A stretch of DNA of 64,000 bases from the NCBI GenBank assembly GCA_037482215.1, contig CP148074.1, positions 3,968,001 to 4,032,000 of the forward strand, read 5' to 3'. The translations under genes and the position numbers were made by a program. Positions 34,798 through 60,385 of the stretch are shown here, piece by piece. Source of the stretch: Pseudomonas mendocina. Its GTDB lineage: Bacteria; Pseudomonadota; Gammaproteobacteria; Pseudomonadales; Pseudomonadaceae. Each line of letters starts with the position of its first letter. The first letter of the stretch is position 1. The notes beneath the pieces are model-generated. The model did not search any database, was not told the origin of the DNA, and saw nothing but the letters and a program-made list of their open reading frames with translations.

Positions 34798-34869
34798 AGC
34801 CTGCATTAGTGCCTTGTGAAGTTGGTTTAATCCACAGGGCACAGCTTGCGCACTTGATATCCGAGTAAA

Positions 34870-34905: not shown

Positions 34906-34908
34906 CTC

Positions 34909-35343: not shown

Positions 35344-35437
35344 GCGATTCGGTCAACCCGACGGGGCGCCTTGGTCATTACGTGCCGTCCGGTCTGCCAT
35401 TACGCTGGCAGGACAACAACAAGACCGGAGTCGCCCT

Positions 35438-35881: not shown

Positions 35882-35900
35882 GAGCCCACCCAACAAGCGA

Positions 35901-36874: not shown

Positions 36875-37591
36875 GTGACACACTTCCGGATCGAACAATG
36901 GCGCGCCTGGGCACCAGGCGTGGACAGTACGGCTGACTGGCTTGCCTGGCACCAGGCACCGTCGTGCCTGCCCGATCTTGGCCAGCAGCCCGATGTCAGT
37001 GCATTGCCTGCGATGCAACGCCGCCGCCTTAGCAGGCTGGCACGCATGGCATTCCATGTGGCCTGGCCACTGGCAGAAGATTTGCCGCAAGTGCCTATGG
37101 TGTTCACCAGCCGACACGGTGAAACACCACGTACGTTGGCGATCCTCAGCGATCTTGCACATAACGAGCCGCTGTCTCCCACCCAATTCAGCCTTTCGGT
37201 GCACAACGCCATTATCGGCTTGTGGTCGATCCAGCGTAGCGACACCAGCGAAATGACGGCCCTAGCAGGCGAAGGTGATGGTCTGGAAACCGCCGTACTG
37301 GAAGCCTGCGGCCTGCTTCAGGAAGGCGCGCCGGCCGTGTTGCTGGTCATTGCCGAAGAAACACCGCCCGAACTGTATCGCCCCTATATAGATGACGTGC
37401 CATTCCCCTATGCCGTTGCCCTGCTGCTTACGCCCGGCAATGACTGGAACCTGCAATTGAGCAAGGAAAGCGGACCACGCTCGCAGTGGCCCCACGCTCT
37501 GAATCTGGTACGCGCGCTGTGCGGTGGCCAGACGGTATTGCAGCATCATTGGAAGAACCGGAAGTGGACATGGTCGAACGAAAAGGTCTGA
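36875..37591 (+). CDS. Ketoacyl-synthase-like protein, chain-length-factor type (ApeC-like)
   Basis: 238 residues, matching the short beta-ketoacyl synthase N-terminal-like family found first in aryl polyene clusters. It has the front-half fold (VFTSRHGETPRTLAIL, FSLSVHNAIIGLWSI) but no active-site Cys or the two His of a working ketosynthase, so it should pair with the true ketosynthase at 51277 as a chain-length factor. GTG start at 36875 (M)THFRIEQW. First gene of the cluster; it overlaps the next by 22 bases. Confidence 0.82.
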   Translation: MTHFRIEQWRAWAPGVDSTADWLAWHQAPSCLPDLGQQPDVSALPAMQRRRLSRLARMAFHVAWPLAEDLPQVPMVFTSRHGETPRTLAILSDLAHNEPLSPTQFSLSVHNAIIGLWSIQRSDTSEMTALAGEGDGLETAVLEACGLLQEGAPAVLLVIAEETPPELYRPYIDDVPFPYAVALLLTPGNDWNLQLSKESGPRSQWPHALNLVRALCGGQTVLQHHWKNRKWTWSNEKV

Positions 37592-38373
37592 GCACATACA
37601 GCCATCCTTACTGGTGGCGCTTGATCGCAACTGCTTTGAGTTTCAGCCTATTCGGAATCGGCGGCTTCCTCCTGCGCGTTCTGGTCTTCCCACTGCTGCG
37701 ACTGCTGCCCGGTGATGCCGTCACCCAGCGCACTCGCTCCCGTGCCGTGGTCAGTGCGACCTTCTACTACTTTGTCCGCTTTATGTACCGCACTGGCGTG
37801 CTGACCTATGAAGTAGAAGGCATCGAACGCCTGGGGCAACCGGGGCAAATGGTCATTGCCAACCATCCATCCCTGATCGACGTGGTGGTGCTCATTGCCT
37901 TTATCCGCGACGCCAACTGCATCGTTAAAGAAAGCCTCTGGCACAACCCCTTTATGCGCGGGCCTATCCGCGCCGCGCAGTACATCAGCAACAGCGGCAG
38001 CGTGGACATGCTGGAAGAAGCAGCAGGCGCCTTGCGAGAAGGCCAAACCCTGATCGTATTCCCCGAAGGCACCCGCACCACGCCGGGTGAGTTTCGTGAG
38101 TTTCACCGTGGTGCTGCGGCCATTGCCCTGCGCGGTGCCCGCGTGGTGACACCGGTTGTGATCGATGTCACCCCCACGACCCTGACCAAGGCTGAACCTT
38201 GGTACAGCATTCCGTCGCGACGTTTTCACTTCCGCCTGCGCGTGGGTGAGGATATCGACGTACAAGCGTTCAATGGCGCCGACCCTGCCCCGGTGGCCTC
38301 ACGCAAACTTAATCAATTCCTGCACCAGCACTTCCTTAAGGAGCTCGCCCGAGATGAGCAATCTAGAACTTGA
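37570..38373 (+). CDS. PlsC-type 1-acyltransferase of the aryl polyene cluster
   Basis: 267 residues. One N-terminal hydrophobic segment (LIATALSFSLFGIGGFLLRVLVF), then the glycerolipid acyltransferase motifs ANHPSLIDVV (HX4D) and FPEGTRTTPGEF. In aryl polyene clusters such enzymes help attach the polyene to a lipid-like anchor. The ATG at 37570 (MVERKGLSTYSHPYWW) is chosen; a longer frame would run 106 bases into the previous gene. It overlaps the next gene (ACP) by 20 bases. Confidence 0.85.
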   Translation: MVERKGLSTYSHPYWWRLIATALSFSLFGIGGFLLRVLVFPLLRLLPGDAVTQRTRSRAVVSATFYYFVRFMYRTGVLTYEVEGIERLGQPGQMVIANHPSLIDVVVLIAFIRDANCIVKESLWHNPFMRGPIRAAQYISNSGSVDMLEEAAGALREGQTLIVFPEGTRTTPGEFREFHRGAAAIALRGARVVTPVVIDVTPTTLTKAEPWYSIPSRRFHFRLRVGEDIDVQAFNGADPAPVASRKLNQFLHQHFLKELARDEQSRT

Positions 38374-38614
38374 AATTAAGAATCTGATCATCGACGCCCT
38401 GGGCCTTGAAGACATGACCGCCGAAGACATCGCCGCCGACCTCACCCTGTTCGGTGAAGGTTTAGGCCTGGACTCGGTAGACGCCCTGGAGCTAGGCCTG
38501 GCCATCCAGAAACGCTTCGGCATCAAGATTGACGCTGAAGCCAAGGACACCCGCAAGCACTTCGCCAACGTGGCCAGTCTGGCGGCATTCGTTTCTTCGC
38601 AACAACCCGCCTGA
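38354..38614 (+). CDS. Acyl carrier protein 1 of the aryl polyene cluster
   Basis: 86 residues, acidic, with the phosphopantetheine site LGLDSVDALEL; the modified Ser is S41. Start at 38354 (MSNLELEIKNLIIDALGLED) overlaps the acyltransferase end and gives a normal ACP length. Carries either the aryl starter or the growing chain. Confidence 0.93.
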   Translation: MSNLELEIKNLIIDALGLEDMTAEDIAADLTLFGEGLGLDSVDALELGLAIQKRFGIKIDAEAKDTRKHFANVASLAAFVSSQQPA

Positions 38615-38625
38615 GGATCGCGCCG

Positions 38626-38886
38626 ATGCAAACCCGTGACGATATTTTCAACACCCTGCGCGACGCCCTCGTTGAACTGTTTGAACTGGAACCTGAGCGC
38701 ATCACGCTTCAGGCCAACCTGTATCAGGACTTGGAAATCGACAGCATTGATGCCGTCGACCTGATCGACCACATCAAGCGCCAGACCGGCAAAAAGCTCG
38801 CGGCCGAAGAGTTCAAAGCCGTGCGCACCGTGGGCGATGTGGTTGAAGCCGTATTCCAACTGGTCAACAGCCCAGCCGCTGAATAA
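38626..38886 (+). CDS. Acyl carrier protein 2 of the aryl polyene cluster
   Basis: 86 residues with the site LEIDSIDAVDLIDH (S40). GAGGA is eight bases before the ATG. Only distantly similar to ACP 1, which fits the two-ACP scheme known for aryl polyenes (one for starter activation, one for chain extension). Its stop overlaps the next start (TAATG). Confidence 0.93.
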   Translation: MQTRDDIFNTLRDALVELFELEPERITLQANLYQDLEIDSIDAVDLIDHIKRQTGKKLAAEEFKAVRTVGDVVEAVFQLVNSPAAE

Positions 38887-39431
38887 TGGCGCGCCTGTTT
38901 GGCCTGCTGTTGCTGATTGCCGGAGTGCTCTACCCGTTTGCCGTGTATTACGGCATGGAGCACCTGTCGCCCCAGTGGTTTGCCGTATGCCTCGGCGTGC
39001 TGTGGCTCGCCCGTGCGCTTTCGCAGCGGGGCAAGCCCGGCAACCTGTGGATGACGGCGGTTGCACTGTCGTTCTGCCTGCTACTGGGCTTGTCGGCACA
39101 AGAACAGCTGCTGCGCTGGTATCCAGTGCTGCTCAACGGCTTGCTGATGGTGACATTTGGTCTGAGCTTAAAGTATGGCCCGCCGCTGATTGAGCGACTG
39201 GCACGTATTCGTGAGCCGTACTTGCCCGAGGTCGCTATCCGCCATATACGGCGGGTCACACAGGTGTGGACACTGTTTTTCCTGCTCAACGGCTTGGTGG
39301 TTGTGGCGCTGAATTTCTGGGCCCCACTAAGTTGGTGGACGCTGTACACCGGCCTGATTGCCTATGTGTTGATGGGCCTGTTGTTTGTCGGTGAGTGGCT
39401 GGTACGCCAGCACGTAAGGAGACACGAATGA
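38886..39431 (+). CDS. Integral membrane protein of aryl polyene clusters (COG4648-like)
   Basis: 181 residues with about five to six transmembrane helices (LFGLLLLIAGVLYPFAVYYG, WFAVCLGVLWLARAL, and others) and the motif LERIREPYLP-like RIREPYLPEVAIRHIRRVTQ in a loop. Such proteins occur in almost every aryl polyene cluster; their job is not known. Coupled to the genes on both sides by one- and four-base overlaps. Confidence 0.8.
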   Translation: MARLFGLLLLIAGVLYPFAVYYGMEHLSPQWFAVCLGVLWLARALSQRGKPGNLWMTAVALSFCLLLGLSAQEQLLRWYPVLLNGLLMVTFGLSLKYGPPLIERLARIREPYLPEVAIRHIRRVTQVWTLFFLLNGLVVVALNFWAPLSWWTLYTGLIAYVLMGLLFVGEWLVRQHVRRHE

Positions 39432-41113
39432 ACTGGCTGCCCCTTGAGCGCCTGTTAGAAACTGCCCAGCCTGGCCGTCAGGTGACGCCACAGCTGGAGC
39501 ATCCCGCACTGCTGCAACAGGCCCTGCAATTGGCCTTTGTTCTGCAACAGCGCGGCGTACAGCGTCTGGCCCTGCATATGGAAGACGCCGGTGAGCTGGC
39601 CATTGCCCTGCTGGCCGCTTGGCGCGCTGGCATCGCCGTTGTGCTACCGGCTGATGCGCAAGCCAACACCCGTCAGCGCCTGGCCACCAGCTGTGACCTG
39701 TGGCTGGACACCCTCGACGGCCTGTTCACAGCGGCCAGCCCGGCACTCGATCCCGCCCTGCTGGCGGTGGATAACTGCCGTCTGACCCTGAGCACTTCGG
39801 GCTCCAGTGGTGAAGCCAAGCTGATCGACAAATCCCTGCGTCAGCTCAGCAACGAAGTCGAAGCACTGGAAGCCCTCTGGGGCGAACAAGTTGCCGGTGC
39901 GACCATTTTCGGCAGCGTTGCCGCGCAGCATATTTACGGGCTGCTATTCCGCGTGCTGTGGCCGCTGTGCGCCGGGCGCTGTTTTATCCCCCGTGCCTTG
40001 CCGTTCCCAGAAGATTTACAGCGCGAAAGCCTGAACCTGATCCGCGAAGACAGCAGCAAGCGTTTCGCTTGGGTAGCCAGCCCCGCCCTGCTCAAACGCA
40101 TGGGTGACAACCTCGACTGGGCCGCGCTGCAACAGGTGCGTCAGGTGTTTTCCTCCGGCGGTGCGTTGCCTGCTGAAACCGCCACGGAGCTGCACCGCCT
40201 GCTCGGTCAGTGGCCGACTGAAATCTACGGCAGTTCGGAAACCGGCGGCATCGCCTGGCGCCAAGGTGGCGAGCTGTGGACGCCGTTTGCAGGGATTGAA
40301 ACCGGCAGCAATGAGGACGGCGCGCTCAATCTGATCTCCCCTTATTTGCCGGAAGGCCACCGCGAGCAGACTGCCGATGCTGTGAGCTTTGAAGCCGATG
40401 GCCGTTTCCGCCTGCTGGGTCGTCTGGATCGCATCATCAAGCTGGAAGAAAAACGCATCTCCCTGCCCATGTTGGAGCAAGCACTGATCAATCATGAATG
40501 GGTCAGTGATGCCCGTTTAGGCGTGATTCAGCAGGGCCGCGCCTACCTCGGCGCACTGGTCAGCCTGTCGCCTGCAGGCCTGCATGCGTTGCGCAATCAG
40601 GGCCGCCGTACACTGACGGAAACCCTGCGCCAGCACCTCACACAACACACCGAAGCCATCGCCCTGCCGCGTCGCTGGCGGCTGCTCGCACAGCTGCCGT
40701 ACAACGCACAAGGCAAGCTGACGCAAGTCTGTGTGGATGAATTGCTCGCAGCACCGCGTCCCAAACTGGTCGAGCCACTGTCGGCCGTCGAGCAGGATGG
40801 CGAGTGGCAACTGGAGCTGGATATCCCGCTGGATTTGGCCTACTTCACCGGCCACTTCCCGCAGACCCCGGTGCTGCCTGGCGTAGTGCAGGTGGACTGG
40901 GCCCAGCAACTGGCTCGGCGCCTGATCCCCGATTTGCCACCCCGTTTCGGCGGCATGGAAGTGCTTAAGTTTCAGCAACTGGTGCGCCCCGGCGACCGCC
41001 TGCAACTGACCCTGCGTTTCGATGCCGAGCGCGGCAAGCTGTATTTCGCCTTCCGCAATGGCGAGGCAGCCTGTTCATCTGGCCGCATTCTGCTGGGGGC
41101 TGCCGGTGTATAA
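39428..41113 (+). CDS. AMP-dependent aryl-acid ligase fused to a hotdog dehydratase (ApeH-ApeI-like fusion)
   Basis: 561 residues. Residues 1-440 are an adenylate-forming ligase: P-loop STSGSSGEAKLIDK, IYGSSETGGIAWRQ, and RLDRIIKLEEKRIS with the hinge. It should activate an aromatic acid and load it on the cluster ACP. Residues 445-561 are a FabZ/FabA-like hotdog domain with the catalytic-type loop YFTGHFPQTPVLPGV. In Escherichia coli these are two proteins, ApeH and ApeI. The ATG at 39428 overlaps the previous stop by four bases; an earlier Met has no family support. Confidence 0.88.
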   Translation: MNWLPLERLLETAQPGRQVTPQLEHPALLQQALQLAFVLQQRGVQRLALHMEDAGELAIALLAAWRAGIAVVLPADAQANTRQRLATSCDLWLDTLDGLFTAASPALDPALLAVDNCRLTLSTSGSSGEAKLIDKSLRQLSNEVEALEALWGEQVAGATIFGSVAAQHIYGLLFRVLWPLCAGRCFIPRALPFPEDLQRESLNLIREDSSKRFAWVASPALLKRMGDNLDWAALQQVRQVFSSGGALPAETATELHRLLGQWPTEIYGSSETGGIAWRQGGELWTPFAGIETGSNEDGALNLISPYLPEGHREQTADAVSFEADGRFRLLGRLDRIIKLEEKRISLPMLEQALINHEWVSDARLGVIQQGRAYLGALVSLSPAGLHALRNQGRRTLTETLRQHLTQHTEAIALPRRWRLLAQLPYNAQGKLTQVCVDELLAAPRPKLVEPLSAVEQDGEWQLELDIPLDLAYFTGHFPQTPVLPGVVQVDWAQQLARRLIPDLPPRFGGMEVLKFQQLVRPGDRLQLTLRFDAERGKLYFAFRNGEAACSSGRILLGAAGV

Positions 41114-41840
41114 GGCCTGCGCGGTGATTCCGGTCTACAACCACGGGCGTACCCTGCCTGCGGTGGTGGCCGAGTTGCACAAAGCCGGTTTGCCCTGCGT
41201 ACTGGTGGATGATGCCTCTGCTGCCGAGTGCGCTGCCGTGATGGATCAGCTCGCCACTCAGGCCGACACTCACCTGCTGCGGCTGCCGCAGAACCAAGGC
41301 AAAGGCGGCGCGGTGATGGCCGGCCTACGCGAAGCCGCTCGCCTCGGTTTTACCCATGCCTTGCAGGTAGATGCCGACGGCCAGCACAACCTGAGCGATG
41401 TCAGCGTGTTTGTCAGCGCCTCGCAAACTGCGCCGGATGCACTGATCTGCGGTTATCCACAGTACGACGCCAGTGTGCCGAAAGGCCGTCTGTATGCGCG
41501 CTACCTGACCCACGTGTGGGTGTGGATCAACACCCTGTCGCTGCAAATCCGCGATTCAATGTGCGGCTTCCGCGTATACCCACTGGCGCAGACTCTGGCG
41601 CTGATCAACCACGTCAATATCGGTAAACGAATGGATTTCGACACCGAGGTACTCGTGCGTCTGGCCTGGCGCAATCAGCCCATGCACTGGCTGCCCACCC
41701 GCGTGCACTACCCGGAGGATGGCCTGTCCCACTTCCGCCTGTGGCACGACAACGCGCTGATCTCAAAAATGCACGCCAAGCTCTTCTTCGGCATGCTCCT
41801 GCGCGCCCCGCGTATCCTCTGGCAAAGGTGCTGGCGATGA
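41106..41840 (+). CDS. Family 2 glycosyltransferase
   Basis: 244 residues with the GT2 (GT-A) fold: ACAVIPVYNHGRTL at the front, VDDASAA, NQGKGGAVMAGLREA and LQVDADGQHN (DxD metal site). It probably adds a sugar to the polyene head group or anchor. The GTG at 41106 is chosen: it has GGGGG upstream, overlaps the ligase stop by eight bases and puts the first beta strand at the front; the ATG further up lies deep in the ligase gene. Confidence 0.84.
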   Translation: MYKACAVIPVYNHGRTLPAVVAELHKAGLPCVLVDDASAAECAAVMDQLATQADTHLLRLPQNQGKGGAVMAGLREAARLGFTHALQVDADGQHNLSDVSVFVSASQTAPDALICGYPQYDASVPKGRLYARYLTHVWVWINTLSLQIRDSMCGFRVYPLAQTLALINHVNIGKRMDFDTEVLVRLAWRNQPMHWLPTRVHYPEDGLSHFRLWHDNALISKMHAKLFFGMLLRAPRILWQRCWR

Positions 41841-42772
41841 GCAGTCAACACTGGGCCAGACAGCGCGAACGCGGCAGCTATATCCTGATGAAGCTGACGG
41901 TCATGCTCTCGCGCCTGCTCGGCCGTCGCCTAATCAGCCCGCTGCTGCACCTGATCGTTGCCTACTTTTACCTGTTCGGCAGCACCGCCCGACGCAGCAT
42001 TTTCGAATACCAGCAGAACCTGGCGCAGTGGAGCGCCCGCCCTGATCTCAAGCCCACCCAGCTGACCGTGTTCCGCCAGTTCATGGCCTTTGCTGACACG
42101 CTGCTGGACAAGCTTGATGTGTGGAGCGGCAGGATTGGCCTGGAGCGCCTGGAGCTGGTCGACCCGGAGAACATCTGCGGCAAGTTATATGAGCAAGGCC
42201 GCGGGCAGATTCTGGTGGCTTCGCACTTAGGCAACCCGGAAGTCTGCCGCGCCCTGGCCGAAATCGGCGAAGACGTGACCATGAACGTCCTGTTGCACAC
42301 CAAACACGCCGAACAATTCAACCGGTTGCTCAGTGAGTCCGGTGCCAGTCAAATGCGCCTGATCCAGGTCAGCGAACTGGACGCCGCAACCATGATGCAA
42401 TTGTCCGAACGCCTGGATCGGGGCGAGTGGCTGGCCATTGCCGGCGACCGCGTCCCGCTGCGAGGCAGCCGCAAAGCCATTGTGGAGTTTCTCGGCAAGC
42501 CCGCCGCGTTCCCACAAGGCCCATGGCTGATGGCGGGACTGTTGCAATGCCCGGTCAACCTGATTCATTGCCTGAAGTTCGATGGCCGCTACAAGGTCAC
42601 CATCGAGCCGTTTGCCGAGCGCATCGAATGGAAGCGCAGCGAGCGTGATCAGGTGATTCAACACTGGGCCCAACGCTATGCCGACAGCCTGGCACAGCGC
42701 TGCCTGAGTGCCCCTTTGCAGTGGTTCAACTTCTACCCGTTCTGGAATAAAGATGACGACACACCAGCCTGA
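41837..42772 (+). CDS. LpxL/HtrB-type acyltransferase
   Basis: 311 residues of the lysophospholipid / lipid A late acyltransferase family: start MSSQHWARQRERGSY, one membrane helix, the motif ASHLGNPEVCRA (HX4E), then AGDRVPLRGSRK and a hydrophobic PQGPWLMAGLL. It may transfer the polyene or a fatty acyl chain to a glycolipid acceptor in the inner membrane. ATGA overlap with the GT2 gene. Confidence 0.87.
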   Translation: MSSQHWARQRERGSYILMKLTVMLSRLLGRRLISPLLHLIVAYFYLFGSTARRSIFEYQQNLAQWSARPDLKPTQLTVFRQFMAFADTLLDKLDVWSGRIGLERLELVDPENICGKLYEQGRGQILVASHLGNPEVCRALAEIGEDVTMNVLLHTKHAEQFNRLLSESGASQMRLIQVSELDAATMMQLSERLDRGEWLAIAGDRVPLRGSRKAIVEFLGKPAAFPQGPWLMAGLLQCPVNLIHCLKFDGRYKVTIEPFAERIEWKRSERDQVIQHWAQRYADSLAQRCLSAPLQWFNFYPFWNKDDDTPA

Positions 42773-44294
42773 TCCCGTAGTTTTTGGCGAGCATGCTCTG
42801 AGCATCGAACAGATCGTTGCCCTGTCTCAGCGCCGCGCTCCGGCGCAGCTGCAGAGCGACGCCGCCTACCGGGAGAAAATCGCCAAGGGCGCCCGCTACC
42901 TCGACAGCCTGCTCGACCGCGAAGGCGAGATCTACGGCATTACCACCGGCTACGGCGACTCCTGCGTGGTCTCCGTACCGCTGCATCAGGTTGAAGCCCT
43001 GCCGCGCCACCTGTTCACCTTCCACGGCTGCGGCCTGGGCAAACTGCTGGATGCGCCGAGCACCCGTGCCGTACTGGCCAGCCGTTTGCAGTCGTTGTGC
43101 CACGGGGTTTCTGGCGTACGCGTAGAACTGCTGGAGCGTCTGCAAGCCTTCCTTGAGCACGACATTCTGCCGCTGATCCCGGAAGAAGGCTCGGTGGGTG
43201 CCAGTGGCGACCTCACGCCGCTGTCTTACGTTGCCGCGACCTTAACGGGTGAGCGTGACGTCCTGTACAAAGGCGAACGCCGCACCTCCGCGGAGGTTCA
43301 CGCTGAGCTTGGCTGGACGCCGCTAACCCTGCGCCCGAAAGAAGCCCTGGCCCTCATGAACGGCACAGCGGTGATGACTGCCCTGGCCTGCTTGGCCTAC
43401 TCCCGCGCCGATTACCTGCTGAAGCTGGCGACCCGCATCACCGCACTCAACGTGGTGGCCCTGGAAGGCAACCCGGAGCACTTTGACGAGCGCCTGTTCG
43501 CCGCCAAACCCCATCCGGGCCAGACTCAGGTTGCCGCCTGGCTGCGCCAAGACTTGGCGATTAACGCGCCAACGGCTCCGCTGCATCGCCTGCAAGATCG
43601 CTACTCGCTGCGCTGCGCCCCACACGTACTCGGCGTATTGGCCGACAGCCTAGGCCTGCTGCGCCAGTTCATCGAGACTGAACTGAACAGCGCCAACGAC
43701 AACCCGCTGATTGATGCCGAAGCCGAGCGCGTGCTGCACGGCGGCCACTTCTACGGCGGGCATATCGCCTTCGCCATGGACAGCCTGAAGAATCTGGTGG
43801 GCAACGTTGCTGACCTGCTCGACCGCCAGCTCGCCCTGCTGGTCGACGTGCGCTACAACCACGGCCTGCCGAGCAACCTGTCCGGCGCGCCAGCGGAAAC
43901 CGCGATGATCAACCACGGCTTTAAGGCCGTGCAGATCGGCGCCAGCGCCTGGACCGCCGAAGCGCTGAAAAACACCATGCCGGCTAGCGTGTTCTCGCGC
44001 TCCACTGAATGCCACAACCAGGACAAAGTCAGCATGGGCACCATCGCCGCCCGCGATGCCCTGCGCAGCTTGGAGCTGGCCGAACAAGTGGCCGCCGCCA
44101 CCTTGCTGGCCGCCAACCAAGGCGTATGGCTGCGTCAGCAGGCCGGTAAAGACGACATCCCAGCACCGCTGCTGAGCATGCGCGAGCAGTTGGCCAGCGA
44201 GTTCCCGCCGGTGATCGAAGACCGCGCACTGGAAGCAGAGCTGCGCCTGTGCCTGACCCGTATCCGCGAACAACACTGGAGCCTGTATGCGTAG
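42753..44294 (+). CDS. MIO-type aromatic amino acid / histidine ammonia-lyase
   Basis: 513 residues. A150-S151-G152 in SVGASGDLTPLSYVA forms the MIO prosthetic group, and Y61 in YGITTGYG fits the catalytic Tyr. Further landmarks are NSANDNPLID and STECHNQDKVSMGTIAARD. The two selectivity positions (His-Leu in tyrosine, Phe-Leu in phenylalanine, Ser-His in histidine ammonia-lyase) are F90-H91 here, a mix that fits none cleanly. In this cluster it should deaminate an aromatic amino acid to a (hydroxy)cinnamate-like starter, as tyrosine ammonia-lyase does for flexirubin. Histidine catabolism is unlikely, as no hut gene is near. Overlaps both neighbours. Confidence 0.9.
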   Translation: MTTHQPDPVVFGEHALSIEQIVALSQRRAPAQLQSDAAYREKIAKGARYLDSLLDREGEIYGITTGYGDSCVVSVPLHQVEALPRHLFTFHGCGLGKLLDAPSTRAVLASRLQSLCHGVSGVRVELLERLQAFLEHDILPLIPEEGSVGASGDLTPLSYVAATLTGERDVLYKGERRTSAEVHAELGWTPLTLRPKEALALMNGTAVMTALACLAYSRADYLLKLATRITALNVVALEGNPEHFDERLFAAKPHPGQTQVAAWLRQDLAINAPTAPLHRLQDRYSLRCAPHVLGVLADSLGLLRQFIETELNSANDNPLIDAEAERVLHGGHFYGGHIAFAMDSLKNLVGNVADLLDRQLALLVDVRYNHGLPSNLSGAPAETAMINHGFKAVQIGASAWTAEALKNTMPASVFSRSTECHNQDKVSMGTIAARDALRSLELAEQVAAATLLAANQGVWLRQQAGKDDIPAPLLSMREQLASEFPPVIEDRALEAELRLCLTRIREQHWSLYA

Positions 44295-44712
44295 CAAAGG
44301 TGTGGTGCAGGCTGAGATCGAGCTGCAAGTCCAGTTCTACGACGTCGACATGATGGAAGTGGTTTGGCACGGCCACTACGTCAAATACTTCGAGCAGGCG
44401 CGCTGTGCCCTGCTCGACAAGCTCGGCCACAACTACACGCAGATGCGCGACGCTGGATACGCCTGGCCGATCATCGACCTGCAAGTGCGCTACATGCGTG
44501 GCGCACAGTTCGGCCAGAAGCTGATTGTCCGAGCGGATCTGGTGGAGTGGGAAAACCGCCTGAAGATCAACTACCTGATCGTCGACGCCGAAACCGGCGA
44601 GCGCATGACACGTGGCAGCAGCGTGCAGGTGGCGGTGGAAATCGCCAGCCGCGAGATGCAGTTCGTCTGTCCGAAAGTCTTCACGGATGCCGTCGAGAGG
44701 GCCATGCAATGA
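44287..44712 (+). CDS. 4HBT-type thioesterase (ApeK-like)
   Basis: 141-residue hotdog thioesterase: VQFYDVDMMEVVWHGHYVKY (the Asp of the 4HBT/YbgC class) and FEQARCALLDKLG. In aryl polyene systems this enzyme releases finished or stalled chains from ACP. Eight-base overlap with the ammonia-lyase gene and ATGA-type overlap with the LolA-like gene. Confidence 0.88.
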   Translation: MRSKGVVQAEIELQVQFYDVDMMEVVWHGHYVKYFEQARCALLDKLGHNYTQMRDAGYAWPIIDLQVRYMRGAQFGQKLIVRADLVEWENRLKINYLIVDAETGERMTRGSSVQVAVEIASREMQFVCPKVFTDAVERAMQ

Positions 44713-47646: not shown

Positions 47647-48803
47647 GCGTGCTCGGTTTCTGGTTAATCGCTCTGGTGATCTACGCGCTGGTTGCCACCC
47701 TCGGTGGTAAGCGCCTGATCCCAATTGTGGGCCAGTTGCTGGTGGCCAGTCTGGCGATACCTGCCCTGCTGCTGGGCTGGGTTGAACCGCATTGGCAGCT
47801 CAGCGCAACCGACCTGCTCGCCCCGGACTGGCTTCAACTGCTCTACGGCCTGTGCTTTGCCCTGCTGCTGGGTTACATCCTGAGTGATGTGATTGATCTG
47901 GATGTGAGCAGCGCCTGCCTGAAAATCGCCCTGCCGAGCTTCCTTGTGCCGATGCTGGCCGGGCTGGCCTGCGCTTTGTGGCTGTTGCCCGGCGAGCACA
48001 GCTGGCTGAGTGCAGTGGGCATCGGCCTGCTGTTTTCCATCACCGCGATTCCGGTGCTGTACCTGTTTTTGCAGAACATCGGCTACCCGCCGGAGCAAAC
48101 CAAGCGCCTGATGCATGCGGCGATTCTGATGGATTTTCTGTGCTGGAGCCTGTTCGGCTTAGCCCAAGGCAGCAATGATCCGGCGGCCCTGCTGTGGCCG
48201 TTGCTGGCTGCTGCGCTACCTGCCATGTTGCGAGCGCTGGGCTTGCGTCACGGTCTGTTCTACAGCCTGCCGTTCTTTGCCCTGATGGTGCTGTTCCAGT
48301 ACCTGCACCTGAATGCGCTGGTCTTCGGCATCGCTTACATGCTGTGCCTGGCTTGGCAGAAGCAGCCTTTTCAATTACCGCTGAAGGATGCGCATTTCAA
48401 GCGTTTGCTCAACGGCCTAGCGGTGCCGCTGATCCTCACTTACGGCGTGCTCTGGGTGGATTTCCACAACCTCGGCAACGGCCTCACCTGGCAGCACCTG
48501 CTGGCCTTGTTTGTACTGCCGGTGCTGAGCAAAGTCATCGGTAGCTGGCTGGGCCTGCACTGGGCTGATCCGCAAAGCCCGGCGCGGGTGAAATGGCACG
48601 AAAGCATCCTGCTGAATATTCGCGGCCTGACCGAAATCGTCTTCCTCAACTTGCTCCTGCAATTGCAGCTGATCGACTCGCTGGTGTATTTCAGCCTGTT
48701 GCTCATGAGCCTGTTTTCAACACTGCTGCCAGCACTGCTCGGCCGCAGGTCTGCCAAATCCTTAAAGCATAACGAGGCCAGTAGAAGCCATGAACTCACC
48801 TGA
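47643..48803 (+). CDS. CPA2 antiporter-like membrane protein
   Basis: 386 residues with about 11-12 transmembrane helices. It shows the Kef/CPA2 layout: GKRLIPIVGQLLVASLAIP at the front, GIGLLFSITAIPVLYLFLQ, HAAILMDFLCWSLFGLAQ and, near the end, LLNIRGLTEIVFLNLLLQ. The ion-binding aspartate pair of electrogenic CPA2 transporters is reduced to MD. It may set local ion or proton balance or have been recruited to move the product; the role is unknown. ATGA overlap with the MMPL gene makes it part of the same operon. Confidence 0.75.
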   Translation: MSVLGFWLIALVIYALVATLGGKRLIPIVGQLLVASLAIPALLLGWVEPHWQLSATDLLAPDWLQLLYGLCFALLLGYILSDVIDLDVSSACLKIALPSFLVPMLAGLACALWLLPGEHSWLSAVGIGLLFSITAIPVLYLFLQNIGYPPEQTKRLMHAAILMDFLCWSLFGLAQGSNDPAALLWPLLAAALPAMLRALGLRHGLFYSLPFFALMVLFQYLHLNALVFGIAYMLCLAWQKQPFQLPLKDAHFKRLLNGLAVPLILTYGVLWVDFHNLGNGLTWQHLLALFVLPVLSKVIGSWLGLHWADPQSPARVKWHESILLNIRGLTEIVFLNLLLQLQLIDSLVYFSLLLMSLFSTLLPALLGRRSAKSLKHNEASRSHELT

Positions 48804-50034
48804 AGTTGAACGGCGTAGTGTCGTAGTCATTGGTGCGGGCCCTTCCGGTTCAATCGCCGCCGCCATCCTCAAACGCAAAGGTCACGATGTCCTGATTCTG
48901 GAGCGTCAGCGTTTCCCACGCTTCTCCATCGGCGAAAGCCTGCTCTCGCACTGCCTGGACTTCGTTGAAGAAGCCGGGATGCTGGAGGCCGTGCGTGCAG
49001 CCGGTTTCCAGACCAAGCACGGTGCAGCGTTCGGCTGGGGCGAGCGTTACAGCGAGTTTGACTTCCGCGATACCTTTACGCCGGGCATGGGCTCGACCTA
49101 TCAGGTGCTGCGTGCTGATTTCGACAAGCTGCTGGCTGATCAGGCCGAGCTGCAAGGCACGGAGATTCGCTACGAAGAGGAAATCTACGCGGTGGATTTT
49201 GACCGCGCCCAGCCGCGCCTGAGTGTGCGCCGCTTGCAGGATGGCCATGAGTATCAGATCGAGTGCGATTTCGTCCTCGATGGCAGTGGTTACGGCCGCG
49301 TGCTGCCGCGCCTGCTCGACCTTGATACGCCGTCCAGTTTCCCGGTGCGTAAAGCCGTGTTCACCCACGTGGAAGACCGCAGCGCAGGCACTGGCTTTGA
49401 CCGCGAAAAAATCCTCATCACCACCCATCCGACCCTGCGCGATGTGTGGTTCTGGACCATCCCATTCAGCAATGGTCGCTGCTCGGTTGGCGTGGTGGCC
49501 GCTGCGGAACGCTATGAGGGCCGCCCGGACGATCTGGATGCCTGCCTCAAGCAGTTCATCGAAGAGACCCCAAGCCTTAACAAGGTGCTGAAAAACGCCG
49601 TGTGGGACACCCCGGCGCGTACCATTGGCGGTTACTCGGCCAACGTCAAATCCCTGCACGGCCCAGGCTTTGCACTGCTGGGCAACGCAGCGGAGTTCCT
49701 CGACCCGGTGTTCAGCTCTGGCGTGACCATCGCCATGCGCTCCTCCAGCATGGCCGCGAACCTGCTCGACCGTCAGTTGAAGGGCGAAAGCGTGGACTGG
49801 GAAACCGAGTTCGCCATTCCCCTCAAGCGCGGCGTGGACACCTTCCGCGTGTACGTTGAAGGCTGGTACGACGGCAGCTTCCAGGACGTGATTTATTACG
49901 AGAAAGCCCAACCGGAAATCCGCCGCATGATCAGCTCGATCCTTGCCGGTTACGCTTGGGACGAAAAGAACCCTTACGTCGCCGAACCGCGCCGCCGTTT
50001 GCGGGTACTCGCTGAAGTCTGCGCCAGCAACTGA
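48790..50034 (+). CDS. Flavin-dependent halogenase-like oxidoreductase
   Basis: 414 residues. FAD-binding GAGPSG (15-20) at the front, GESLLSHCLDF, then FQTKHGAAFGWG with K76 where flavin halogenases keep the catalytic Lys, and VWFWTIPF giving the halogenase hallmark WxWxIP at 220-225. LGNAAEFLDPVFSSGVTIAM closes the FAD domain. Xanthomonadins are brominated aryl polyenes, so ring halogenation of the product is plausible; related proteins in other polyene clusters are often named only as FAD oxidoreductases and may act otherwise. No flavin reductase gene is in the cluster. Overlaps the previous gene by 14 bases. Confidence 0.83.
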   Translation: MNSPEVERRSVVVIGAGPSGSIAAAILKRKGHDVLILERQRFPRFSIGESLLSHCLDFVEEAGMLEAVRAAGFQTKHGAAFGWGERYSEFDFRDTFTPGMGSTYQVLRADFDKLLADQAELQGTEIRYEEEIYAVDFDRAQPRLSVRRLQDGHEYQIECDFVLDGSGYGRVLPRLLDLDTPSSFPVRKAVFTHVEDRSAGTGFDREKILITTHPTLRDVWFWTIPFSNGRCSVGVVAAAERYEGRPDDLDACLKQFIEETPSLNKVLKNAVWDTPARTIGGYSANVKSLHGPGFALLGNAAEFLDPVFSSGVTIAMRSSSMAANLLDRQLKGESVDWETEFAIPLKRGVDTFRVYVEGWYDGSFQDVIYYEKAQPEIRRMISSILAGYAWDEKNPYVAEPRRRLRVLAEVCASN

Positions 50035-50051
50035 CTTAACCAAGGACTGTT

Positions 50052-50777
50052 ATGAACAACCCGGCCGCTACCTACGTTGAAGAAACCCGCTTTGGCTTCT
50101 GGTTCCTGCGCAGCCATGTGTGGCACCACCATGTGCTGCGTGTGGCGATCAACGACCTGCTGACCCGCTTTGACACGCCACTGCCTGAGGCACCGGTGAT
50201 TCTCGATGCAGGATGCGGTCAGGGCCGCTCATTCGGCCTGCTGGCTAATGCATTTAGACCGTCAAAGATCATCGGTCTGGACGCCGACCCGCACAGCCTC
50301 GACTGCTCCCGCGCCGAGGCTCAGCGTCTGGGTCTGGACGTGGATCTGGTGCTCAGCGATTGCGGCAAAATCGACCTGCCTGATGCCAGCGTTGACCTGC
50401 TGTTCTGCCATCAGGTATTCCATCATCTGGTGGAACAGGAAAAGGCCTTGGCCGAGTTCTGGCGCGTGCTGAAACCGGGCGGCCGCCTGTTGTTTGCCGA
50501 GTCCACTAAGTACTACATCGACACGTGGGTAATCCGCTGGCTGTTCCGTCACCCGATGCACGTGCAAAAGAGTGCCGACGAATACCTGGCCATGCTGCGC
50601 GGCCAAGGCTTCCAATTCACTGAGCAAAACATCTCCTACCCTTATCTGTGGTGGAGCCGCTCGACTGACTTCGGTCTGCTGGAGCGCTGGGGCCTGCAAA
50701 AGCCCAAGCCGTTCGGCCAACGTAATGAAACCCTGGTCAACGTGGTCGCGACCAAACCGCTGGAGGCAACTGCCTGA
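50052..50777 (+). CDS. SAM-dependent methyltransferase (ApeB-like)
   Basis: 241-residue class I methyltransferase with motif I ILDAGCGQGRSFGLLA, acidic IGLDADPHSLDC and LFCHQVFHHLV, then LKPGGRLLFAES. In aryl polyene systems a methyltransferase decorates the aromatic head. AAGGAC is upstream of the ATG. The stop overlaps the next start (TGATG). Confidence 0.87.
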   Translation: MNNPAATYVEETRFGFWFLRSHVWHHHVLRVAINDLLTRFDTPLPEAPVILDAGCGQGRSFGLLANAFRPSKIIGLDADPHSLDCSRAEAQRLGLDVDLVLSDCGKIDLPDASVDLLFCHQVFHHLVEQEKALAEFWRVLKPGGRLLFAESTKYYIDTWVIRWLFRHPMHVQKSADEYLAMLRGQGFQFTEQNISYPYLWWSRSTDFGLLERWGLQKPKPFGQRNETLVNVVATKPLEATA

Positions 50778-51277
50778 TGCTACGCGCCCTGTTGTTAAGC
50801 CTGAGCCTGCTGCTGAGCGCCTGCGCCAGCCACACCGCCCTGCCTGAACGGCAGACCGCATTGGTGGCTGAGTTGCCGCTAACCTTGCAGGTGCAACGGC
50901 AAACAACAGCCGACCAGCAAGACTGGCTGCTCGTGCTGCAAGACGAAAACGGCAGCCTGCGCGCCTCACTGTTTGACCCGATTGGCGTACCGCTTGCGCG
51001 CCAGCAACTGCGTGACGGCTCCTGGCATAACGACGGCCTGCTGCCGCCCAATTACGAAGCCCGTGAGCTGTTCAGTGCCCTGCTGTTTGCCCTGACACCG
51101 GCTGATCAGCTAAACGCAGCCTACCCAAGCGACAACTGGCAGGTGCAGGCAACGGGCAGCCGCCAGCTCGCACCGCAGTGGCGTATCGACTACCGCACGC
51201 CGCTGGATTTCACCCTGTATCAACCGGCTGACCTGCGTTACCAGATCAGCCCGCTCCCTGACGACAAGGCACCTTAA
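50777..51277 (+). CDS. DUF3261-type lipoprotein
   Basis: 166 residues with a lipoprotein signal (LRALLLSLSLLLSACASH; lipid-modified Cys at 16). The rest is beta-rich (LPLTLQVQRQTTADQQDW, DWLLVLQDENG-like) and resembles the outer-membrane LolB-like lipoproteins that accompany the LolA-like protein in these clusters. Probably the outer-membrane receptor for the exported polyene. Coupled by one-base stop/start overlaps on both sides. Confidence 0.8.
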   Translation: MLRALLLSLSLLLSACASHTALPERQTALVAELPLTLQVQRQTTADQQDWLLVLQDENGSLRASLFDPIGVPLARQQLRDGSWHNDGLLPPNYEARELFSALLFALTPADQLNAAYPSDNWQVQATGSRQLAPQWRIDYRTPLDFTLYQPADLRYQISPLPDDKAP

Positions 51278-52491
51278 TGGCTACTTACTTGAACGCCCTG
51301 GGGCTCAATTGCGCACTCGGCCAAGGCAAAGCTGCCGTGGCCCGCGCCCTGTTTAGCGGCGACAGCAGCGGCATGCGCCGCGAAAGCGGCTGGGTTCCCG
51401 AACTCTCGCTCACCGTGGGCGCCGTGCCCGGCGAGCTACCGCCCCTACCAGAGCTGGCAGAGCACCCGCTGTGTCGCAACAGCCAGCTGCTGCTGGCCGC
51501 CGCACTGGAGATTGAAGACAGCCTGCGTGCAGCTGTGGCCCAGTTCGGAGCCGAACGTGTTGGCGTGGTACTCGGCACCAGCACCACCGGCATCGACGAA
51601 GCCAGCCAGGGTATCGCCCACTTTCTGCACAACGGCGAACTGCCGCCCAGCTATCACTATGCCCAGCAGGAGCTGGCAGAACCGGCCAGCTTCCTCAGCG
51701 ACTGGCTGGGCGTCTGCGGCCCCAGCTACAGCATCTCCACCGCCTGCACCTCCGGTGCCCGCGCCCTGCTCAGCGCCCAGCGTCTGCTCAATCTCGGCGT
51801 ATGCGATGCGGTGATCTGCGGTGGCGTGGACAGCCTGTGCAAGCTCACGCTGAATGGTTTCTCGGCTCTGGAAGCCGTCAGCCCGGAACTGTGCAACCCG
51901 TTCTCGCGCAACCGCAAAGGCATCAACATCGGCGAAGGTGCAGCGCTGTTCCTGATGACCCGTGAACCGCTGGACGCAAGCAGCGCGCCCATCGCCCTGC
52001 TTGGCGGCGGCGCCAGCTCGGATGCGCACCATATTTCCGCACCGCACCCGCAAGGCACCGGTGCGCAAACCGCCATGAGCAAAGCCCTGACGGCAGCTGG
52101 CATCACTGCCGAGCAAATCGACTACCTCAACCTGCACGGCACCGCGACCCAGCACAACGACGCCATGGAAAGCATCGCTGTGCAGGCCATCTTCCCCCAC
52201 GGCGTGCCCTGCTCCAGTAGCAAGCCGCTCACCGGGCATACCTTAGGTGCTGCGGGCGCGCTGGAGGCGGCGTTCTGCTGGCTGAGCCTGAGCACTTACA
52301 ACGCCGACAACCTGCTGCCCCCCCAGCGCTGGGATGGCGAGGCCGATCCGGCCCTGCCTGCACTCAACCTGGTGAAGCCCGGCACACATCTGACAACACG
52401 CAACGGACGCGCATTGATGAGTAACTCTTTCGCCTTTGGCGGCAACAACATCAGCCTGATCATCGGCGACGCCCAAGGAGAACGCCCATGA
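51277..52491 (+). CDS. Beta-ketoacyl-ACP synthase (ApeO-like)
   Basis: 404-residue condensing enzyme with a complete Cys-His-His triad: C157 in STACTSG, H287 in NLHGTATQHND and H321 in PLTGHTLGAAG. It should extend the polyene chain with malonyl-ACP and, by analogy with known systems, pair with the triad-less protein at 36875. TAATG overlap with the lipoprotein gene; four-base overlap with the dehydratase gene. Confidence 0.92.
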   Translation: MATYLNALGLNCALGQGKAAVARALFSGDSSGMRRESGWVPELSLTVGAVPGELPPLPELAEHPLCRNSQLLLAAALEIEDSLRAAVAQFGAERVGVVLGTSTTGIDEASQGIAHFLHNGELPPSYHYAQQELAEPASFLSDWLGVCGPSYSISTACTSGARALLSAQRLLNLGVCDAVICGGVDSLCKLTLNGFSALEAVSPELCNPFSRNRKGINIGEGAALFLMTREPLDASSAPIALLGGGASSDAHHISAPHPQGTGAQTAMSKALTAAGITAEQIDYLNLHGTATQHNDAMESIAVQAIFPHGVPCSSSKPLTGHTLGAAGALEAAFCWLSLSTYNADNLLPPQRWDGEADPALPALNLVKPGTHLTTRNGRALMSNSFAFGGNNISLIIGDAQGERP

Positions 52492-52952
52492 CCTTGTGGC
52501 CAGTTGCCGAGCTAGTGCCCCATGCAGGGGACATGATCCTGCTGGATCAAGTCCAGCGCTTTGGCGATGAAGACATCGAAACCCGCCTCACCGTGCGCGA
52601 CGGCGGCCTGTTCAATCAGGACGACGGCAGCCTGCCCGCCTGGGTCGGCATCGAAATCATGGCGCAAAGCGTCGCGGCCTACGCGGGCTGCCATGCCCGC
52701 ACACGCGGCGAGCCAGTTGAGCTGGGCTTTTTGCTCGGCACTCGCAACTACCAGTGCAATGTTGAGCGCTTTCCGCTTGGCGCCGAGCTGCACATCCACG
52801 CCACCCGCTCCCTGCAAGACGACAACGGCATGGGCGTTTTCGAATGCCACTTAACCGGCACTGGCATTGAAGCCATCGCCCGGCTTAACGTATTCCGCCC
52901 GCCGCAGGTGGCCAGTTATCTACAAGAAGAATTTCAGGATACACAACGATGA
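52488..52952 (+). CDS. 3-hydroxyacyl-ACP dehydratase (ApeP-like)
   Basis: 154-residue single hotdog domain: LVPHAGDMILLDQ (His in the FabZ-like position) and WVGIEIMAQSVAAYAGCHA (Glu-containing central helix). It removes water after ketoreduction to make each double bond. A second dehydratase domain is fused to the ligase at 39428. ATGA overlaps on both sides. Confidence 0.9.
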   Translation: MTLWPVAELVPHAGDMILLDQVQRFGDEDIETRLTVRDGGLFNQDDGSLPAWVGIEIMAQSVAAYAGCHARTRGEPVELGFLLGTRNYQCNVERFPLGAELHIHATRSLQDDNGMGVFECHLTGTGIEAIARLNVFRPPQVASYLQEEFQDTQR

Positions 52953-53677
52953 GTGAAACCATTCTGGTCACAGGCTCCAGCCGGGGTATCGGCCGTGCGA
53001 TTGCCTTGCGTCTGGCCAAAAGCGGCTACGACATCGTCCTCCACTGCCGCTCCCGTATCGAAGAAGCGCAGGCCGTGCAGAGCCAGATCGAAGCACTGGG
53101 CCAACAGGCGCGCATCCTTCAGTTCGATGTCTCCGACCGCGCTGCCTGCCGCGCCACACTGGAAGCCGATGTTGAACAACACGGCGCTTATTACGGCGTG
53201 GTCTGCAACGCTGGCCTGACCCGCGACGGTGCGTTTCCCGCCCTGAGTGAAGATGATTGGGACAGCGTGCTGCGCACCAACCTCGATGGTTTCTATAACG
53301 TCCTGCACCCGCTGACCATGCCGATGATCCGCCGCCGCAAGGCCGGGCGCATTGTCTGCATCACCTCGGTGTCGGGTTTGATCGGTAATCGCGGCCAGGT
53401 CAACTACAGCGCCAGCAAAGCCGGTGTGATCGGCGCTGCCAAAGCCCTCGCCATCGAGCTGGGCAAGCGCAAAATCACCGTCAACTGCGTCGCGCCGGGG
53501 CTGATTGATACGGACATCGTTGATGACGACGTGCCGATTGAAGAAATCCTCAAAATGGTCCCGGCAGCCCGCATGGGCACACCGGAAGAAGTGGCCGGTG
53601 CAGTTAATTTTCTGATGTCTGAGGAGGCGGCTTACATCACCCGCCAGGTCCTCGCAGTGAACGGTGGGTTGTGCTGA
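52949..53677 (+). CDS. 3-oxoacyl-ACP reductase (ApeQ-like, FabG family)
   Basis: 242-residue short-chain dehydrogenase: TGSSRGIGRAIAL (NADP-binding), CNAGLTRDG, the catalytic Ser in ITSVSGLIGNRGQ and YSASK, with FabG-type end ITRQVLAVNGGLC. It reduces the beta-keto group in each elongation round. Confidence 0.93.
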   Translation: MSETILVTGSSRGIGRAIALRLAKSGYDIVLHCRSRIEEAQAVQSQIEALGQQARILQFDVSDRAACRATLEADVEQHGAYYGVVCNAGLTRDGAFPALSEDDWDSVLRTNLDGFYNVLHPLTMPMIRRRKAGRIVCITSVSGLIGNRGQVNYSASKAGVIGAAKALAIELGKRKITVNCVAPGLIDTDIVDDDVPIEEILKMVPAARMGTPEEVAGAVNFLMSEEAAYITRQVLAVNGGLC

Positions 53678-54912
53678 TGAGTGGATTCAAACGCGTTGTA
53701 GTCACCGGCATGGCAGGCGTGACCTCACTGGGCAGCGACTGGCCGACCATCAAGGCGAACTTCGCTGCGGGTAAAAGCGGCATCCGCTACATGCACGAGT
53801 GGGAACGCTACAGCGAATTGAACACGCGCCTAGGCGGCCCGGTGGATGACTTTGAAGCCCCCAAACACTGGACCCGCAAGCAACTGCGCAGCATGGGCCG
53901 TGTCTCCAAGCTCGCGGTGTACGCCGCTGAGCGTGCACTGGAGCATGCCAACCTGCTGGGCAACCCGATCATTGCGGATGGCCGCATGGGCGTAGCGTGC
54001 GGCTCCTCCACCGGCAGCACCGAAGAAGTCAAAGCCTTCGGCAACATGCTGCTCAACTCGGTGGCCGATGGCCTCAACGCCAACTCCTATATCCGCATGA
54101 TGCCGCACACCACCGCGGCCAACATCAGCATCTTCTTCGGCCTTAAGGGCCGCCTGATCCCGACCTCCAGCGCCTGCACCAGCGGCAGCCAGGGCATCGG
54201 CTATGCCTACGAGGCAATCAAATTTGGTCGCCTGAAAATGATGCTCGCAGGCGGCGCAGAAGAACTCTGCCCCACCGAGGCCATGGTCTTCGATGCGCTG
54301 TACGCCACCAGCCTGAAAAACGACACGCCGCACCTGTCGCCACGCCCGTATGACAAAGACCGCGACGGTCTGGTGATCGGCGAAGGCGCAGGCATGCTGG
54401 TATTGGAGGAACTGGACCACGCCCTCGCCCGTGGCGCGACCATCTATGCCGAAATCGTCGGCTTCGGCTGCAACTCAGACGGCCAGCACGCCACCAAACC
54501 GGAAAAAGCCACCATGCGCGGCGCGATGGAACTGGCACTGGAAGATGCCGGGCTTGAGCCTTCAGTCATCGGCTACGTCAACGGCCATGGCACCGCAACC
54601 GATCAAGGCGATGTGGCTGAGTCCCAAGCCACCCAGGAACTGTTCGGCCCGCATATGCCCATCAGCTCGCAAAAGAGCTACTTCGGCCACACCCTCGGTG
54701 CCTGCGGTGCCCTGGAATCCTGGTTCAGTATCGAGATGCTCAACAGCAACCAGTACGTGCCCACGCTCAACCTCGACAACATCGACCCAGCCTGCGCTGA
54801 ACTGGACTACCTGCGCGGTGAATTCCGCGAAATGAACAACCAGTACGTGATGAACAACAACTTCGCGTTCGGTGGCGTGAACACGTCACTGATTTTTAAG
54901 CGCTGGGCCTGA
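53677..54912 (+). CDS. Beta-ketoacyl-ACP synthase II type (ApeR-like, FabF family)
   Basis: 411 residues. Triad C167 (SSACTSG), H304 (VNGHGTATDQ) and H338 (YFGHTLGACG); end NNFAFGGVNTSLIFKRW. The last of the polyene enzymes. ATG at 53677 (MSGFKRVVVTG) shares its A with the reductase stop; a GTG two codons upstream is the alternative. The operon spacing opens to 85 bases after this gene. Confidence 0.92.
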   Translation: MSGFKRVVVTGMAGVTSLGSDWPTIKANFAAGKSGIRYMHEWERYSELNTRLGGPVDDFEAPKHWTRKQLRSMGRVSKLAVYAAERALEHANLLGNPIIADGRMGVACGSSTGSTEEVKAFGNMLLNSVADGLNANSYIRMMPHTTAANISIFFGLKGRLIPTSSACTSGSQGIGYAYEAIKFGRLKMMLAGGAEELCPTEAMVFDALYATSLKNDTPHLSPRPYDKDRDGLVIGEGAGMLVLEELDHALARGATIYAEIVGFGCNSDGQHATKPEKATMRGAMELALEDAGLEPSVIGYVNGHGTATDQGDVAESQATQELFGPHMPISSQKSYFGHTLGACGALESWFSIEMLNSNQYVPTLNLDNIDPACAELDYLRGEFREMNNQYVMNNNFAFGGVNTSLIFKRWA

Positions 54913-56726: not shown

Positions 56727-56933
56727 TCATCAAAACCATTAGAAGCCATACACACATTATCTATTCGCAGCATTTCGGCATTCGGCTATAAGCCGTTTAG
56801 CCAACAAGCGCCGAGAGAGCCTCTTAAGTGCCCGCTTAGGGTGCAACCGTCAATGATGACAATTCGACATCCCTTGTGCGAGTCTTGGCCCGCAACAAGC
56901 ATCAAGCACCACTCTTTATAAGAAGAACACAGC

Positions 56934-57660: not shown

Positions 57661-57677
57661 TTATGGGAGTTCCCAAC

Positions 57678-58745: not shown

Positions 58746-58779
58746 CGGCAAGATTCCTGGCAATTCGACGGAAACGTCA

Positions 58780-58794
58780 GCACACAAAGTGTGC
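58780..58794. promoter_or_regulatory. 15-bp palindrome upstream of hemE
   Basis: GCACAC-AAA-GTGTGC, perfect, 35 bases before the hemE start. It could be an operator or a leader hairpin; no regulator is assigned. Confidence 0.35.
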
Positions 58795-58893
58795 AAGCTT
58801 ATACCACGAGTTGGCGCCCACCTCAGGGAGGGGACTTAAGTAAAAGCGGTGACGTACAACTGTAAAGGGCGGCATTGTCGCAAAGCACAAAAC

Positions 58894-58957: not shown

Positions 58958-60385
<1,428 letters not shown>

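Follow-up and report, generated by a model that had tools for sequence, protein, structure and literature searches.

A complete, genus-typical aryl polyene gene cluster with a probable ammonia-lyase starter route in Pseudomonas mendocina

The twenty-gene locus

We analyzed a stretch of 64,000 nucleotides (the window) from a 4.76 Mb single-contig Pseudomonas mendocina genome (contig CP148074.1, positions 3,968,001 to 4,032,000), in which positions 36875 to 54912 carry a gene cluster of the aryl polyene (APE) type. The twenty genes that an earlier note on this DNA had described as same-strand and mostly overlapping are numbered g1 to g20 here, and all were verified as open frames on the plus strand in the open reading frame listing. 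With the starts as first used, 17 of the 19 gene junctions overlap by 1 to 20 bases and two are gaps of 11 and 17 bases. The start of g2 is most likely the ATG at 37570, giving the 22-base overlap with g1 that the note had set as its upper limit, and that of g7 is most likely the GTG at 41106. As the note had placed it, the cluster lies between a gene for a ParA-type ATPase on the g1 side and hemE beyond the apeR-type end, both on the minus strand.

A Pfam family scores over its curated cut-off for 19 of the 20 genes, and g5, the single gene without a Pfam match, is instead 38% identical to Escherichia coli ApeG. Comparison with the characterized cluster of E. coli CFT073 gave counterparts among apeC to apeR for 16 of the 20 genes, 15 of them by blastp (g1 to g8, g10 to g12, and g17 to g20, corresponding in order to ApeC, ApeD, ApeE, ApeF, ApeG, ApeH plus ApeI, the N- and C-terminal halves of ApeJ, ApeK, ApeL, ApeM, ApeO, ApeP, ApeQ, and ApeR) and g16 by its family, DUF3261. 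The remaining four genes have no E. coli match; they encode an ammonia-lyase of the 4-methylideneimidazole-5-one (MIO) type (g9), an antiporter-like protein with a cation:proton antiporter (CPA) fold (g13), a halogenase-like flavoprotein (g14), and an S-adenosylmethionine (SAM) methyltransferase (g15).

The core kit is complete, with an ApeO-type ketosynthase, an ApeC-type chain-length factor, and an ApeR-type starter ketosynthase (48%, 34%, and 57% identity, respectively), and two acyl carrier proteins (ACPs), a ketoreductase, two dehydratases, an adenosine monophosphate (AMP) ligase, and a thioesterase are all encoded (Pfam/NCBIfam and blastp). The export set is likewise complete, its LolA-like, MMPL, and DUF3261 members being recognized by family and the first two also by blastp. 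This gene-by-gene homology bears out the earlier reading of an APE kit with LolA/MMPL export and a probable outer-membrane pigment. Since blastp maps the short first gene, g1, to ApeC, this gene is the chain-length factor; such a factor had been claimed and does exist, but if the gene at 51277-52491 was meant, that one is an ApeO-type ketosynthase with its Cys.

Taken together, the locus is very probably a complete Vibrio fischeri-like APE cluster working by a lyase-starter route, with reactions and product predicted from the genes, and a yellow outer-membrane APE pigment is its probable product. The cluster itself is genuine, complete, and genus-typical, an ordinary one of an already described type. 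In other Pseudomonas genomes most of these genes occur again, in unchanged order, which places the set far beyond chance. Third-position GC ranges from 0.66 to 0.81 over the twenty genes and is 0.70 and 0.73 in the two flanking genes measured; because this range spans the flanking values and other Pseudomonas genomes show the cluster in synteny, we rejected an origin as a foreign island.

Scans of the cluster returned 1 promoter against 3.5 expected from shuffles and 15 terminators against 17.7 expected, and an Rfam scan found no RNA inside it. The cluster may have a 21st member, g21, encoding a 146-amino-acid protein with no Pfam family over cut-off. Of the 103 loci that cover this stretch, 45 have a same-strand match at most 1.5 kb downstream of apeR, 6 have one elsewhere in the locus, and 52 lack it. 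The twenty genes previously delimited are real, but the end set at 54912 is possibly one gene short. In L045 and L047, both from outside Pseudomonas, a g21-type gene likewise lies downstream of genes of the cluster.

Elsewhere in the window, Rfam assigns 30908-30977 on the plus strand to TwoAYGGAY, barely above the gathering score (43.4 versus 43 bits), and 10346-10417 to the Pseudomonas small RNA P10. Positions 12001-14000 have a G+C content of 0.445 versus 0.50 to 0.64 in the remaining 2-kb steps and are a possible acquired segment.

Table 1. Genes of the cluster and its neighbors, with the matches on which each assignment is based
Feature	Position	Strand	Evidence
ParA-type ATPase	35901..36671	-	
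g1 ApeC-type chain-length factor, 238 aa	36875..37591	+	PF13723 263 bits; E. coli ApeC 34%
g2 ApeD-type lysophospholipid acyltransferase	37570..38373	+	PF01553; ApeD 40%
g3 ApeE-type acyl carrier protein	38354..38614	+	PF00550; NF006617 over cut-off; ApeE 55%
g4 ApeF-type acyl carrier protein	38626..38886	+	NF003757 over cut-off; ApeF 54%
g5 ApeG-type hydrophobic protein	38886..39431	+	no Pfam at E<=0.001; ApeG 38%
g6 fused AMP ligase (ApeH-type) and dehydratase (ApeI-type)	39428..41113	+	PF00501, PF22818; ApeH 32%, ApeI 35%
g7 family 2 glycosyltransferase, N-terminal half of ApeJ	41106..41840	+	PF00535; ApeJ residues 5-242, 55%
g8 LpxL-like acyltransferase, C-terminal half of ApeJ	41837..42772	+	PF03279; ApeJ residues 246-549, 37%
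g9 MIO aromatic amino acid ammonia-lyase, probably tyrosine	42753..44294	+	PF00221 525 bits; ASG triad; motif 2 Gln
g10 ApeK-type thioesterase	44287..44712	+	PF13279; ApeK 52%
g11 ApeL-type LolA-like carrier	44709..45317	+	PF19574; ApeL 29%
g12 ApeM-type MMPL exporter	45307..47646	+	PF03176; ApeM 29%
g13 CPA-fold antiporter-like membrane protein	47643..48803	+	PF00999; model best matches NapA
g14 flavin-dependent halogenase-like flavoprotein	48790..50034	+	PF04820 88.6 bits; nearest solved relative 3nix; signature residues 115/115
g15 SAM methyltransferase	50052..50777	+	PF08241; no blastp match to E. coli ApeB at E<=0.01
g16 DUF3261, ApeN/LolB-like	50777..51277	+	PF11659; E. coli ApeN is DUF3261; no blastp match to ApeN
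g17 ApeO-type elongating ketosynthase, Cys157	51277..52491	+	6qsp_A 365 bits; ApeO 48%
g18 ApeP-type dehydratase	52488..52952	+	PF22817; ApeP 37%
g19 ApeQ-type ketoreductase (FabG2)	52949..53677	+	NF004200, TIGR01831 over cut-off; ApeQ 58%
g20 ApeR-type initiating ketosynthase, Cys169	53671..54912	+	NF006587 735 bits; ApeR 57%
g21 possible extra member, 146 aa	54998..55438	+	match downstream of apeR in 45/103 loci
hemE	57678..58796	-	

Occurrence of the cluster

Among 149 Pseudomonas genomes, the source genome included, the APE-type lyase (counted at E<=3.7e-174 and tallied by hand from the match listing) is present in 116; the other lyase matches are distant (33 to 38% identity) and probably histidine lyases. 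The flavoprotein occurs in 111 genomes and the antiporter in 78, all of which fall, by hand comparison, within the 116 with the lyase, while none of the other 33 has an antiporter. One genome with the flavoprotein (G094) is not among the 116; in the part of its cluster (L054) that the comparison covered, g10 comes after g8 with no lyase gene.

In a sample of 274 genomes of the class, again including the source genome, 14 other genomes carry the flavoprotein. Other cluster genes accompany it in 12 of these loci, from varied hosts, the remaining two being short contigs, and the lyase is present in 5 of the 12. The antiporter was found in none of the other 273 genomes at E<=1e-15, and its being a common Gammaproteobacteria gene was rejected.

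Seeding a scan of species genomes with the flavoprotein, we took the best 80 of at least 553 loci, not every one of which contains the whole cluster; the named loci came from Pseudomonas, Stutzerimonas, Shewanella, Cupriavidus, Aliivibrio, and others. The flavoprotein is in all 80 because it seeded the scan; by tblastn, 73 loci match the ApeO-type ketosynthase, 73 the ketoreductase, 71 the ApeR-type ketosynthase, 61 the lyase, and 22 the antiporter, all of these last being Pseudomonadaceae loci and one match a mere 30% trace. Lyase and flavoprotein are both present in Shewanella loci and in the single Aliivibrio locus (L149).

These counts bear on the view in the earlier note of the lyase and the halogenase-like gene as additions pulling the cluster toward flexirubin and xanthomonadin. 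That view is not supported: both genes are the rule in Pseudomonas and occur also in the Shewanella and Aliivibrio loci, and a P. donghuensis cluster with ammonia-lyase genes has been likened to the APE cluster of V. fischeri (PMC5851621).

Starter unit and proposed pathway

The ASG triad of MIO lyases and a Gln in motif 2 are found in all 91 lyase sequences compared, the window's included. The motif 2 residue is described as Glu in histidine ammonia-lyases and Gln in tyrosine and phenylalanine ammonia-lyases (PMC3992019), and a histidine ammonia-lyase identity for g9 was ruled out by the Gln in its place. A second selectivity site, with Phe-His in 88 of these sequences and Tyr-His in the other 3, fails to separate tyrosine from phenylalanine; the substrate is probably tyrosine. 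A lyase and ligase are described as giving the 4-coumaroyl starter of flexirubin in Chitinophaga pinensis (PMC3992019).

In the pathway that we propose, ordered after section 5 and Table 1 of PMC8253772, itself citing in vitro work on Xenorhabdus, g9 would convert L-tyrosine (possibly L-phenylalanine) to 4-coumarate (or cinnamate), which the ligase part of g6 would load onto an ACP. The ApeR-type g20 would start the chain, g17 and g1 would extend it by malonyl units, and g19 together with the dehydratases g18 and g6 would form each new double bond. The aryl head would be decorated by g15 and g14, the polyene acid joined to a lipid by g2, g7, and g8, and the lipid-linked polyene carried to the outer membrane by g11, g12, and g16. 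The CPA-type g13 would be a dispensable accessory, perhaps for ion balance or export.

Several points weigh against this assignment. What the data show is the identity, order, and conservation of the genes, their active-site residues, and the antiporter fold, each reaction and the product being predicted from these. The preference for tyrosine or phenylalanine is described as not readable from sequence (PMC3992019). Blastp (E<=0.01) does not link the methyltransferase g15, an ordinary SAM enzyme judging from its family, to E. coli ApeB. The lyase is often missing outside Pseudomonas, as in the class sample, and a lyase starter is therefore not general. Likeness to V. fischeri was judged via a single Aliivibrio relative (L149).

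FabF- and FabG-like enzymes are also common to dialkylresorcinol (DAR) and fatty acid routes, and hybrid APE-DAR clusters are described in Pseudomonas (PMC10165715), so that the locus might instead yield another type II compound, be it an unusual fatty acid or a DAR. We regard this as very improbable given that counterparts of ApeC, ApeG, ApeI, ApeP, ApeO, and ApeR are all there with an aryl starter lyase, and that no darA, darB, or other DAR gene was recognized among the neighbors scanned at 25943-36671 and 55815-63992, some of which have no family. DAR genes were not found beside the related P. flavescens locus (L109) either. The assignment as an APE cluster is the one that we retain.

The flavoprotein and halogenation

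A Lys (Lys76 in g14) and the WxWxIP and FxxPxxSxG residues, which together with the GxGxxG of the flavin adenine dinucleotide (FAD) site we take to be marks of flavin-dependent halogenases, are kept in all 115 sequences compared (the window's and 114 relatives), and GxGxxG in 114, the remaining one being truncated. The best solved match of g14, at 359 bits, is 3nix, presumably from Cytophaga and named "flavoprotein/dehydrogenase"; the solved halogenases 8zop, 3e1t, and CmlS follow at 142 to 153 bits. In the printed alignment 3nix carries the same signature residues, which consequently fail to separate halogenases from the 3nix clade. For this reason halogenation by g14 is only possible, and of the possibly halogenated outer-membrane pigment proposed earlier, a probable pigment is well supported while its halogenation is left at that strength.

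Two functions for g14 fit these data. One is that of a working FADH2-dependent halogenase that would chlorinate or brominate the phenol head as proposed for xanthomonadin. We hold this tentatively: the invariant signature and the matches to solved halogenases speak for it, whereas 3nix is far ahead as a solved match, the V. fischeri APE product is reportedly without halogen, and literature searches returned no title on a halogenated Pseudomonas APE, a weak test made mostly by titles. Halogenase genes are, on the other hand, described within xanthomonadin and related clusters (PMC3691225; PMC3949708, Table 1).

The other function, to which we give about an even chance, is that of a non-halogenating flavoprotein which keeps the halogenase fold and would carry out a head-group hydroxylation or a redox step. 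The name of its closest solved relative, its place beside other cluster genes in varied hosts of the class sample, and its absence from 6 of the 116 lyase-bearing Pseudomonas genomes are consistent with such a role; the invariance of WxWxIP and the Lys argues against it. No activity reported in Pseudomonas for such a halogenase-like enzyme came up in the literature searches, judged mostly by titles. In L090 and L131 (both Neisseria) and in L142 (Paraburkholderia), a flavoprotein relative of 54 to 59% identity stands alone, the roughly 10 kb to each side of it matching no further window gene.

Loss and exchange of the antiporter gene

The predicted model of g13 (predicted local distance difference test score of 82) has the NapA/NhaA-type CPA fold, its best PDB match being NapA (5bz2, template modeling score of 0.66). 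A CPA ion site is expected to hold two acidic or polar residues (DD or ND). Among 34 antiporter sequences the second position is Asp in 33 and Glu in one, and the first is I, M, or V in all; Arg327 and Glu331 are also present in all 34.

Where present, the antiporter gene lies between the MMPL and flavoprotein genes in 31 of 33 loci, the exceptions being one locus without the flavoprotein and one contig edge. In 28 lyase-bearing clusters without it, the gap between these two genes is -10 to 355 bases, and at most 216 in 27 of them, and these short gaps indicate a clean loss (or an ancestral absence). The 355-base gap, in L122, holds a 30%-identity antiporter match and is possibly a decayed remnant.

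Protein identities were compared over 25 fetched clusters and the window (325 pairs, 78 for the antiporter) against the mean of nine core genes; some loci represent the same genome twice (L061 and L129). Identity per gene tracks the core mean with residual standard deviations of 1.8 to 5.3, from which the antiporter alone deviates, at 9.5; the behavior of this gene is the single surprise of the analysis. In L064 and L065 the core is 93% identical and the antiporter only 55% (L064 11076-12221; L065 11021-12166). DNA identity falls from about 90% to 54 to 78% across the antiporter, where a single 60-base block stays at 90%, and rises again beyond it; smaller dips occur near 10.0 to 10.5 kb (75 to 81%) and 18.2 to 18.7 kb (78 to 79%) of L064. 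In the antiporter tree, L065 has a long branch and joins L053 and L061/L129 (support 100/100), the antiporter proteins of L061 (G118) and L129 (P. guryensis SR9) being identical, while a lyase and ketosynthase tree built by a quick method places L065 with L109 and L064.

One could read the antiporter as a Pseudomonadaceae addition whose version matters, deleted in several lineages and swapped gene for gene (55%) amid neighbors of about 90% identity in at least one close pair. This is unlikely in our judgment: clear exchange is confined to one pair, and LolA, MMPL, and DUF3261 have outlier pairs too (residuals to -13.5, -20.9, and -13.7, respectively). If true, it would fit diversifying selection, for instance on a phage or competitor target, or tuning of pigment export to local ion conditions. 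Because the gene has been lost or exchanged in some clusters, it offers a defined genetic handle for studying what this accessory does. A literature search on aryl polyene, antiporter, and Pseudomonas brought up, among the titles listed, none dealing with it. In L048 and L060, LolA and MMPL are 54 to 65% identical to those of the window versus 89 to 90% for the lyase, hinting that export genes are also exchanged.

Comparison with known clusters

The cluster is of the same class as APEVf of V. fischeri ES114 (BGC0000837), and the Aliivibrio relative carries the lyase, the flavoprotein, and the core genes; as in the V. fischeri-like subtype, the ammonia-lyase lies inside the window's cluster, a feature shared with that relative. 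Clusters of P. donghuensis SVBP6 (PMC5851621) and P. brassicacearum 3Re2-7 (PMC6722718) are each described as having 40% of genes similar to APEVf, with ammonia-lyase genes included in the former, and relative to APEVf and these likened clusters the window adds the CPA-type gene. With 58 clusters, APEs are described as the biggest family of gene clusters among Pseudomonas type strains, in a survey where gene clusters generally follow the species tree (PMC8942027), and Pseudomonadaceae APE clusters have been sorted as E. coli- or V. fischeri-like variants (PMC10165715). Against APEEc of E. coli CFT073 (apeA-R), the window has ligase and dehydratase fused and ApeJ split into two genes, beside the four genes without a match.

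With the flexirubin (flx) cluster of C. pinensis, the window shares initiation by ammonia-lyase and then ligase (PMC3992019), but g9 reaches only 302 bits on the FlxA tyrosine ammonia-lyase model NF053541, which has a cut-off of 700. A halogenase or halogenase-like gene is common to the xanthomonadin and arcuflavin clusters and the window; such genes are described as absent in Lysobacter, whose pigment lacks a bromine pattern (PMC3691225). Table 1 of PMC3949708 lists for arcuflavin a halogenase and the Na+/H+ antiporter arcG, and ArcA and ArcG are likened here to g14 and g13 by description only. In the same table the starter enzyme is a chorismatase/XanB2 and a lyase does not appear, and Pfam and NCBIfam recognize the chorismatase (XanB2) family in none of the 20 window genes.

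We found no single paper listing lyase, halogenase, and antiporter together, but each of these added gene kinds has a described precedent in APE-type clusters (PMC5851621, PMC3691225, and PMC3949708). The picture of the cluster is unchanged: it is the lyase-starter version seen in most of the sampled Pseudomonas genomes, with a halogenase-like enzyme of intact signature.

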